Positions 22,474-23,986 of a stretch of 64,000 nucleotides of DNA are shown piece by piece. Location: NCBI RefSeq assembly GCF_010692725.1, contig NZ_JAAFZB010000095.1, forward strand, positions 434,001 through 498,000, read 5' to 3'. Each line of letters begins with the position of its first letter. Positions within the stretch are counted from its first letter, which is position 1. A model generated the notes under the pieces. That model saw only the letters and a list, made by a program, of their open reading frames with translations, was not told the origin of the DNA and ran no database searches. Source of the DNA: Flavihumibacter soli (GTDB taxonomy: Bacteria > Bacteroidota > Bacteroidia > Sphingobacteriales > Sphingobacteriaceae). The position numbers and the translations under genes were made by a program.

Positions 22474-22818
22474 ATGGGAAAACTGATTGAAGAGTTTAAC
22501 GGCTATCGTACTAAAATGAATAGCCGGATTATGGAGAGCGCAAATACAAACATCAAAAGATTTCTTGCCCTGGATACTACCTCCTATGCAGAGGGCGCTC
22601 TCGATGTAAAGACCAAGGAAATGCTTGGCCTTGTTGCTTCAATGGTATTGCGCTGCGACGATTGCATTAAATATCACCTCGGGAAATGTCATGACGAGGG
22701 CGTTTCGACCGAAGAGATGAACGAGGTATTTATGATAGCAAACCTCGTTGGGGGCTCGATCGTCATTCCTCACTATCGTCGCGCCGTTGAGTACTGGGAT
22801 GAGTTGTGTGGGGGTTAA
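22474..22818 (+). CDS. AhpD-like carboxymuconolactone decarboxylase family protein
   Basis: A 114-residue all-helical protein of the CMD/AhpD family (PF02627). The redox motif C61-x-x-C64-x-x-x-H68 is intact in LRCDDCIKYHLG, and the helix after it (GVSTEEMNEVFMIANLVGG) is typical. The CxxC makes a disulphide-reductase or peroxidase-partner role more likely than decarboxylase activity. It follows the ATL gene after 24 bp, so the three genes trmB-ATL-CMD probably form one unit. Its stop at 22818 borders the GGAGTT-like repeat that precedes the four-helix-bundle gene. Confidence 0.88.
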   Translation: MGKLIEEFNGYRTKMNSRIMESANTNIKRFLALDTTSYAEGALDVKTKEMLGLVASMVLRCDDCIKYHLGKCHDEGVSTEEMNEVFMIANLVGGSIVIPHYRRAVEYWDELCGG

Positions 22819-22822
22819 TGGT

Positions 22823-22888
22823 TGGGAGTTAGGAGATTGGGGTTGGGAGTGGGAAGTAAGGAATGGGAAGTGAGGAGTAGGGAGTAAT
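22823..22888 (+). repeat. G-rich degenerate GGAGTT repeat, left flank of the four-helix-bundle gene
   Basis: About 66 bp made of degenerate units such as GGGAGTTAGGAG, GGGGTTGGGAG and GAGGAGTAGGGAG. It is nearly free of C. It begins 5 bp after the preceding stop codon. The right flank of the same gene carries units of the complementary type in opposite orientation. Confidence 0.8.
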
Positions 22889-22921
22889 TTGAGTTTTTAG
22901 CAGATATCTTTAACTTTCATT

Positions 22922-23338
22922 ATGGGAACTTTAAGAGATCTGCTGGCTTACAAAAAAGCCTTTGCCCTGGCGATGGGAATATTCGAACTGACAAAATCTT
23001 TCCCGAAAGAAGAGACATACAGTTTAACTGATCAGATACGGCGATGTTCAAGATCTGTGAATGCAAACCTTGCTGAAGCTTACCGTAAGCGCAGGTATCC
23101 TAATCATTTTATCAGTAAGCTATCTGACGCAGATACTGAAAATGGCGAAACTCAAACCTGGTTGGAATTTGCACTCGCTTGCCAATACATTTCGGAGGAA
23201 GAATACGCTAGCCTTTTTAATCAAAGTGAAGAGGTCGCTAAACTTCTGAGTTATATGATGAACAATCCTGAGAAGTTTCTTTTGAAAATACCGATCCTGA
23301 AAACTGAAAGCTCCAACGTTAAATTACCGCCTGCATAA
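22922..23338 (+). CDS. Four-helix-bundle protein (23S rRNA intervening-sequence family)
   Basis: A 138-residue helical protein of the TIGR02436/bIVP family. The pattern is recognisable from LLAYKKAFALAMGIFELTK, then the motif LTDQIRRCSRSVNANLAEAYRKRRY and the closing WLEFALACQYISEEEY (all read in parts here). The family was first seen inserted in 23S rRNA of spirochaetes but is also common as single genes in Bacteroidota; it is thought to form pentameric helical bundles and its job is unknown. The gene is bracketed by low-complexity repeats in opposite orientation (22823-22888 and 23351-23423), which is unlike its neighbours and suggests it arrived as a unit. Confidence 0.9.
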   Translation: MGTLRDLLAYKKAFALAMGIFELTKSFPKEETYSLTDQIRRCSRSVNANLAEAYRKRRYPNHFISKLSDADTENGETQTWLEFALACQYISEEEYASLFNQSEEVAKLLSYMMNNPEKFLLKIPILKTESSNVKLPPA

Positions 23339-23350
23339 GGTCTTATCTCA

Positions 23351-23423
23351 CCACTCTAAACTCCAAACTCTCACCTGCCAACTCAAAACCTCAACTGCAA
23401 ACTCTCAACTCCAAACTCCAAAC
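23351..23423 (-). repeat. C-rich degenerate repeat, right flank of the four-helix-bundle gene
   Basis: About 73 bp of degenerate CTCCAAACTC / CTCAACTGCAAACT units, almost free of G on the plus strand. On the minus strand it reads GGAGTTTGGAGTTGAGAG, the same type as the left flank, so the two flanks are in opposite orientation. It runs to 3 bp before the tag start codon and so occupies the position where a ribosome-binding site would be. Confidence 0.8.
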
Positions 23424-23425
23424 AG

Positions 23426-23986
23426 ATGACTGACCTTAAAAGATGCTCCTGGTGCGGTACAGATCCGCTTTATGTAAAATATCATGACGAAGAGTGGGGA
23501 AAGCCGGTTTATGATGACCGGGTATTGTTCGAGTTCCTGATCCTTGAAAGTGCCCAGGCTGGACTCAGCTGGATCACTGTTCTTCGGAAGCGGGAAAACT
23601 ATCGCAAGGCATTTGCTGATTTTGATCCTGAAAAGGTCGCTGCCTTTACAGACAAGGATGTCGAGCGCCTGCTTCAGGATCCCGGAATTATCCGTAACCG
23701 TCAAAAAGTTGCCGCTGCTATTAACAACGCAAAGTTGTTCCTTGATATTCAAAGGGAATTTGGAAGTTTTGCCAATTATATGTGGGGTTTCCTCCCCGAC
23801 GGAAAGCCGATAATCAATAACTGGAAAGATCACTCGAAGACTCCGGCACGAACCGATCTTTCCGATAAGATCAGTGCCGACATGAAAAAACGGAGCTTTA
23901 AATTCTTTGGTACCACCATCTGTTATGCCCATATGCAGGCGACGGGAATGGTGAACGATCATTTGCAGGATTGCATTGCCCGCTGA
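23426..23986 (+). CDS. tag: DNA-3-methyladenine glycosylase I
   Basis: A 186-residue base-excision repair enzyme that removes 3-methyladenine. The N-terminus has the zinc-snap ligands: C8 and C11-like residues in RCSWCGTDP, the HDEEWGKPV segment, and later TTICYAHMQATGMVNDH near the C-terminus supplies the His ligands. The catalytic/recognition residues in LESAQAGLSWITVLRKRENY (read in two parts) and the helix-hairpin-helix region are present. Full length. Its upstream region is overwritten by the repeat at 23351-23423, so translation signals are unusual. It may rely on read-through from the upstream genes or on a promoter within the repeat. Confidence 0.95.
   Translation: MTDLKRCSWCGTDPLYVKYHDEEWGKPVYDDRVLFEFLILESAQAGLSWITVLRKRENYRKAFADFDPEKVAAFTDKDVERLLQDPGIIRNRQKVAAAINNAKLFLDIQREFGSFANYMWGFLPDGKPIINNWKDHSKTPARTDLSDKISADMKKRSFKFFGTTICYAHMQATGMVNDHLQDCIAR

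Follow-up and report, generated by a model that had tools for sequence, protein, structure and literature searches.

An S23p-family gene between inverted heptad arrays upstream of tag in Flavihumibacter soli, and similarly flanked genes in other bacteria

The closest described systems are the intervening sequences of 23S rRNA genes that carry an S23p open reading frame, as in Coxiella and Leptospira. In the sections of PMC4990558 consulted here, these consist of a PF05635-type reading frame with inverted terminal repeats that form a stem. The Coxiella unit, as reported there by Warrier and others, has a 28-bp terminal inverted repeat and an S23p ORF, contains tandem GACAGAT heptamers whose copy number varies (two or three, depending on the strain), and is cleaved by RNase III in vitro. 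It has replaced a hairpin tip, the helices that now hold 23S units having originally carried a small tetraloop.

Arrays of seven-nucleotide units (heptads) have been described in several other settings. The cyanobacterial heptanucleotide repeats (STRR, and the P6b classes of the trnL intron) are degenerate 7-nt arrays like those reported below, and the P6b hairpin of the Nostoc trnL intron has been replaced several times by one of another heptad class; unlike here, a link to a PF05635 gene is not described in the sections of that account at hand (PMC4476775). Intergenic heptads are likewise known from Xanthomonas (GGGAATC) and Nostoc, with 70 and 75 convergent inverted heptamer pairs in two Xanthomonas genomes. 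In contrast with the loci studied here, that work follows one word per group, and the terms XCC0516 and S23 have 0 occurrences in the portion consulted (PMC4692102). The TAACTGA heptamers of Beggiatoaceae, cyanobacteria and Bacteroidetes are also intergenic, with indels in steps of 7 nt and a patchy distribution, but they are mostly direct repeats, and S23, 23S rRNA and a four-helix gene have 0 occurrences in the consulted part of the paper (PMC4679880).

The unit between the CMD-like gene and tag

The window, by which we mean the whole stretch of 64,000 nucleotides analysed, holds a unit of comparable build at positions 22821 to 23423. Its boundaries are marked by two host genes that lie outside it: a CMD/AhpD-like gene (22474 to 22818, plus strand; PF02627), which adjoins tag in relatives, and tag itself, encoding DNA-3-methyladenine glycosylase I (23426 to 23986, plus strand; PF03352 and TIGR00624). 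The left array (22821 to 22886, plus strand) starts 1–2 nt past the CMD stop codon (the stop ends at 22818 and the repeats run from 22820–22821), and is G-rich and C-poor on the strand that has the reading sense of the gene; Tandem Repeats Finder (TRF) rows cover 22821–22885 and the lag-7 segment 22821–22886. A leader visible in the sequence (22887 to 22921, plus strand) separates this array from the start codon of an S23p/IVP-type four-helix-bundle gene of 138 aa (22922 to 23338, plus strand). The right array (23352 to 23423, minus strand; TRF rows 23353–23423) aligns as the reverse complement of the left one. A preliminary description of this DNA had the right repeat reach almost to the tag ATG, which is the case, with a gap of 3 bp, which becomes 2 nt when measured from the array end at 23423 to the ATG at 23426. 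The array may also occupy the former position of a tag ribosome-binding region, as proposed there; in relatives this position is taken by a spacer of about 25–95 nt free of repeats.

The same description placed repeat blocks on both sides of the gene, where they indeed lie, and gave their unit as GGAGTT, which has to be replaced by a heptad of the GTTGGGA/GTTAGGA type. The right arm has TRF periods of 7, 14, 21 and 34; the left arm has periods of 14 and 21 together with a short row of nominal period 6 and 7-letter consensus, and can be read directly as nine successive 7-mers (GTTGGGA, GTTAGGA, GATTGGG, GTTGGGA, GTGGGAA, GTAAGGA, ATGGGAA, GTGAGGA and GTAGGGA). The arms thus consist of tandem degenerate 7-nt units, as STRR-type arrays do, and are degenerate enough for their lag-7 segments to score 10.7 and 12.5, under the strict threshold of 14. 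The opposite orientation claimed for the two flanks was confirmed by alignment, the left arm scoring 24 against the reverse-complemented right arm and none of 56 control genes from the window going beyond 16. When it was aligned with right flanks taken from 69 unrelated loci, the left flank did not exceed 18. In a predicted RNA fold, most of both arms is paired around the gene (z of −2.88, calculated with only 20 shuffles). An Rfam search of the window returned no known RNA family at the gathering threshold.

The encoded protein, which had been assigned to the 23S-intervening-sequence family, is firmly a member of PF05635 (23S_rRNA_IVP; E 2.1e-33, 115.2 bits against a curated Pfam cut-off of 33.8), and it also matches the NCBIfam profile TIGR02436 (E 2.1e-30, 105.1 bits against a cut-off of 24). 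As an intervening sequence the unit has the anatomy, that is an S23p ORF between inverted terminal repeats, and fails on location, since it lies between CMD and tag. This sets it and the other units read between protein genes, with their locus-specific words, apart from the 23S intervening sequences, for which published heptamers are those of Coxiella in the consulted part of PMC4990558.

Inside the window unit the PF05635 gene is the one recognised gene, and no transposase of the kind that marks a classical transposon is encoded. In REP/RAYT systems and MITEs a gene also lies between inverted short repeats and gene-less copies are found elsewhere; in those systems there is a recognised transposase and the repeat sequence is shared, whereas here the words vary by locus and the unit contains no transposase. 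The Avd protein of diversity-generating retroelements is a related four-helix-bundle protein. The window protein stays below the Avd cut-offs (29 against 80 bits for NF033474, 36.2 against 40 bits for PF22296) and thus outside that family, and no reverse transcriptase is annotated in 11 annotated plasmid neighbourhoods of such genes.

Arms, words and proteins across loci

The preliminary description proposed a search for flanks of the same type at other four-helix-bundle genes. Such flanks were found at eight of eight genes of this genome by eye and, as sets, in 138 rows from relatives and in 75 named loci. The eight PF05635 genes of this genome each lie between inverted low-complexity arms with a word of their own; examples from the other units are GGTATCA, AAGTAAT, AATTAAG, GAGATAT, AATTTGT and AAAGGTA. 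Left-right scores of the eight units range from 19 to 28, although for one of them (L010) the own score is equalled or exceeded by 12 of 36 foreign right flanks, and automatic consensus words agree between left and right within two letters in five of the eight pairs. Copies within one genome are diverged, only 3 of 284 pairs exceeding 60% identity, and an active recent transposon is therefore not supported. Close to the arm of one unit we noted a small SRP RNA (RF04183; L006:1878-1984, minus strand).

The PF05635 family was found in 38 of the 41 genomes searched (211 matches). Among the matches listed there are 143 unique genes from 35 genomes, 138 of which have both flanks; in these 138 rows two stop-broken genes (L096 and L141) are each counted twice, and both are dropped from a non-redundant set of 70 genes from 30 genomes in which no pair exceeds 60% identity. 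Among the matches listed, the two arms of one locus score 22.0 on average in the 138 rows, compared with 12.6 across loci. The own-pair sum is 3031, while 5000 permutations gave a mean of 1747 (sd 36) and a maximum of 1897. The non-redundant set gave 1392 against a permutation maximum of 948, and in this set flanks taken from two loci in the same genome score 12.0, no better than any others. A second, named set of 75 loci (out of 80), composed mostly of Bacteroidota, gave 1515 against a maximum of 1070. Chance or composition is thus ruled out by the permutations, the control genes of the window and the unrelated loci.

The seven-base period was equally apparent. Self-identity of the flanks is in excess at lags 7, 14, 21 and 28, and among lags 1–30 otherwise only at lag 1, which is common to the controls; this series is absent within the gene itself and in DNA 760–900 nt away. 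In the named set, lags 7, 14 and 21 come top among the nine lags printed. The strict array threshold was passed by 65 of 220 and 25 of 136 arms in the two sets and by none of 285 control windows, with a median of 6.1 and 5.4 heptads per passing arm (range 3–21). Over the strict-threshold arms of both sets, 36 of 45 left arms are G-rich and 41 of 45 right arms are C-rich, and the two strands are therefore not equivalent. At one locus (L136, G003:C4:276777-280094) the polarity is reversed, with the C-rich strand upstream, and at the same site in G018 it is the usual one. At L365, an IMG/VR contig, the arms read by eye as 8-nt units (GGAACTAA) rather than heptads; viral contigs encoding a relative of the gene number ten.

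Consensus words of the two sides are at most one position apart in 49 of the 138 rows (2.8% expected from cross-locus pairs), while in 29 rows, about a fifth, they are 4–5 of 7 positions apart and there is no common word. One common repeat family is ruled out, as the words vary by locus. Own flanks compared in direct orientation have a mean of 15.6 and reach at least 18 in 17 of 138 rows; of 71 neighbouring reading frames in these loci, 15.5% have a score of 18 or above, the highest being 39, because arrays and second units lie near; the arrays are therefore not confined to PF05635 genes.

On plasmids, 13 loci were read from 30 matched records, and by eye and score eight have clear arms (two Nostoc, Anabaena, Picosynechococcus, Calothrix, Riemerella, Gemmatirosa and Azospirillum), four have partial ones, and one, the Pseudanabaena locus L177, has both arrays in the same orientation. 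The ten cyanobacterial loci among them comprise five with clear inverted heptad arms, four partial and the one with same-orientation arrays. Arms were also seen on single contigs titled Opitutae, Clostridia, Atribacterota and Syntrophobacterales, one each and assigned by title only. As statistics over many loci, the inverted-heptad layout with locus-specific words is thus demonstrated to hold generally.

We then compared arms between species at the same site, meaning that homologous reading frames lie on both sides within 1.5 kb; these comparisons used 130-nt flanks and no clean-arm filter. Within a locus the left-right score of such species pairs stays at 17–21 at every protein divergence, whereas between species it falls from 19.2 (protein identity above 80%) through 17.0, 13.1 and 12.7 to 10.3 (40–50%). 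The within-locus score is the higher one in 30 of 46, 30 of 47, 44 of 50, 113 of 124 and 53 of 57 pairs, respectively, although loci are shared between pairs, which are thus non-independent. The words therefore change, and both arms change jointly: between the same two genes, for example, the word is GGTATCA here and GGCATTA in G018. That the two arms remain matched while their sequence drifts is an unusual mode of concerted evolution.

For the comparison of words themselves we used the 73 of 138 rows that passed a clean-arm filter. At different sites the mean word distance (out of 7) is 0.80 for proteins of 60–80% identity (n=15, at least 11 of these pairs involving just three loci), 2.31 at 50–60% (n=95) and 2.6–2.8 below that. 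Because word distance shrinks as protein identity rises, word and gene seem to travel together. The same filter was applied to 31 same-site pairs for dN/dS, which has a median of 0.09 (range 0.04–0.26; the pairs are non-independent); such low values indicate purifying selection and hence that the protein matters.

The family profile matches the solved chains 2GSC (XCC0516) and 2RLD, and the X. campestris S23p is a toroidal homopentamer according to the consulted part of PMC4990558. In a broad alignment of 15 proteins, L35, Q38, S45, N49, E52 and E75 are invariant and R41 nearly so, which agrees with the motif GxxRxxxSxxxNxxE given in the consulted part of PMC3936711. The inequality of the strands, the number of heptads per arm and the pentameric ring lead us to infer strand-specific binding by the protein, perhaps with one heptad per ring subunit.

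In 67 of 92 non-redundant contexts the gene runs in the direction of both neighbours, and in nine it is opposed to both; in the named set it is co-directional with both in 58 of 63 and opposed in two. Antisense cases occur in Nostoc, between two ribonucleotide reductase genes, and in Calothrix. The prevailing co-directionality would fit dependence on host transcription or a transcription-linked insertion. On the cyanobacterial plasmids L177, L178 and L182 the units lie among CRISPR-cas genes (cas6-cas4, cas10-cmr3), surroundings noticed earlier for the gene alone, as the consulted part of PMC3936711 reports.

A resident regulatory module is the alternative that survives best. The protein would bind heptads of its own transcript and tune the operon, and the whole would be inherited vertically with occasional loss. 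It would agree with the purifying selection on the protein, with the orientation of the gene relative to its neighbours in both sets, with the age of the copies within a genome, and with the fact that same-site orthologues above 80% identity keep their word (25 of 26 pairs that have both flanks in common). We nevertheless hold it to be rather unlikely, on account of sites where the unit is missing.

Empty sites and gene-less arrays

The region upstream of tag offered such a site, and the proposed comparison with genomes without the gene spoke for an inserted unit. In 17 genomes (16 of the same genus, one of the same family) CMD lies close to tag, and the spacer of about 25–95 nt, a length that is approximate because it was measured from the end of the protein alignment, is free of the gene and of heptads. 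Outside these 17 are L048, which has neither CMD gene nor unit, L062, in which the unit is present, L068, in which CMD is 436 nt away, no gene is found and the 120 nt before tag are heptad-free, and L066, L067 and L069 to L075, which have other neighbourhoods. At L053 and L061 (G019 and G007) the CMD gene before tag seems broken or diverged, as its matches are split. In another genus, L138 (G023:C1:115607-119921) has a 58%-identical PF05635 gene before tag, with an internal TGA, weak arms and a different word; the site has therefore been occupied on two or more occasions, or the unit predates the genus.

A second case came from the 23S rRNA itself. One of the 23S rRNA copies of Azospirillum lipoferum 4B, that of plasmid AZO_p2, contains a 473-bp insert with a PF05635 gene between arms that read GAGGACGGATGACAG and its reverse complement. 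In place of the insert, the 23S copies of AZO_p3 (flanks 100% identical) and AZO_p1 (99.9%) have a 19-nt hairpin tip, GTGTGATCTTCGATCACGC. The host sequence was confirmed as LSU rRNA, and at the junction 19 nt are replaced with no evident target duplication. A hairpin tip has here given way to a gene-bearing hairpin. The Azospirillum and Coxiella 23S units are built alike, and with the window layout thus present inside 23S rRNA, the intergenic units and the 23S intervening sequences share one anatomy. This likeness, the unit of seven bases and the variation of words by locus were invisible from the window alone.

The tag sites empty in 17 relatives, and the rRNA copy that is empty between identical flanks in the same genome, are not what a resident module would predict; nor is the finding that a relative has the same word elsewhere, the argC-argD site used here and in G018 being gene-free in G003. 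Empty sites and the like-flanked genes elsewhere support instead the idea of the preliminary description that the layout is an inserted unit and a dispersed element. Neither a polymorphic insertion inside one species nor a transposase was seen. In the era-der spacer (L293 to L308) we observed, depending on the species within the genus, a gene unit, a gene-less inverted pair, mixed words or nothing, which resembles a hot spot.

Heptad arrays also occur without the gene. In 464 kb of this genome (400 kb plus the window) 7 is the commonest short tandem period, with 14 arrays at a middle threshold under which the degenerate arms of the window fall; periods 4–6 and 8–13 have 0–3 arrays in the same sample. 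An inverted partner lies within 500 nt of only 4 of 20 gene-less arrays, most being one-sided, so that these are mostly not paired miniature elements. At a looser threshold (35 arrays), 34% of their 7-mers are common to the arms of this genome's own units, compared with at most 19% for any of 31 other genomes and 16% for 200 same-genus pools (sd 4.5, maximum 29%). In G018 (12 arrays) own sharing is 22%, with at most 16% for other genomes and 12% for pools (sd 3.9), the best pool reaching 28%. This test covers these two genomes; gene-less arrays were also found in G010 and G005. Array density has no clear relation to gene number in 100-kb samples of nine genomes (400 kb for G000): it is zero per 100 kb both in a genome with 8 genes and in one with 12, and 1 where there are no genes.

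One route from unit to bare array is suggested by G015, in which the search found no PF05635 gene. Just after argC (L376) we recognised by eye the last 24 codons of a four-helix-bundle gene beside a heptad array, and this relic therefore points to loss of the gene from a unit. Elsewhere, at L278:11297-11650, a 350-bp block contains several heptad words in series, and no PF05635 gene was found in that 20-kb stretch.

The gene might also land in pre-existing heptad arrays, which would then be a property of the genome rather than part of the unit, an explanation favoured by the prevalence of gene-less heptad arrays in the 464-kb sample and by the words they share with resident units. We consider it improbable and disfavour it, since the empty CMD-tag and 23S sites are heptad-free and a gene that landed in a one-sided array would not be expected to have the same word inverted on both arms. 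Low-complexity drift or polymerase slippage in spacers that lie near these genes by chance, slippage having been proposed for heptamer repeats (it is mentioned in the consulted parts of PMC4679880 and PMC4692102), is very improbable and is refuted as a whole account by the own-versus-cross permutation tests (138 rows and non-redundant 70) and by a heptad periodicity that is present beside the gene and gone 760–900 nt off, although slippage may well set the length of the arrays.

A proposed mechanism and related elements

We think it somewhat probable, mechanism included, that 22821–23423 is one member of a dispersed family of insertion units, each made of an S23p-family gene in inverted heptad arrays. 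The mechanism, with paired arms, word-specific binding, hairpin exchange and arm-to-arm copying, is our best reading and for the most part inferred. As RNA or single-stranded DNA the arms would pair to form an extended hairpin whose loop contains the gene, and such a hairpin could allow a unit within a host transcript to be cut out or tolerated, as in the case of the RNase III-cut 23S units. The protein, which in a solved relative is a pentamer in the shape of a ring, would probably bind the heptad strand at a ratio near one heptad to one subunit. New units would arise when a spacer or a hairpin tip is swapped for a whole unit, one arm would be copied from its partner across the hairpin so that the two stay alike, and loss of the gene would leave gene-less arrays behind.

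Many of the parts are in print separately: PF05635, the 23S intervening sequences, cyanobacterial heptanucleotides, the inverted heptamer pairs of Xanthomonas, TAACTGA arrays and the trnL hairpins of Nostoc. A search of freely accessible journal literature found no description of the gene with heptad arms beyond rRNA, nor of locus-specific words. The like-bracketed genes of many bacteria, one of them inside an rRNA gene and each place with a word of its own, point to a family of insertion units that is widespread and has gone largely unrecognised. As a tentative proposal, possible rather than probable, each S23p-family protein may recognise its own heptad word on one strand, swap hairpin tips or spacers with the help of host enzymes and keep both arms in one word, in which case 23S intervening sequences, cyanobacterial STRR and Xanthomonas heptamers would be autonomous and gene-less forms of one class of element, with a changing 'dialect' of its own. 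The finding links how 23S intervening sequences arose with what the S23p/IVP proteins do and with where the heptanucleotide arrays of cyanobacteria, Xanthomonas, Beggiatoaceae and Bacteroidota come from, phenomena that the published accounts, in the parts consulted, treat apart and call unexplained.
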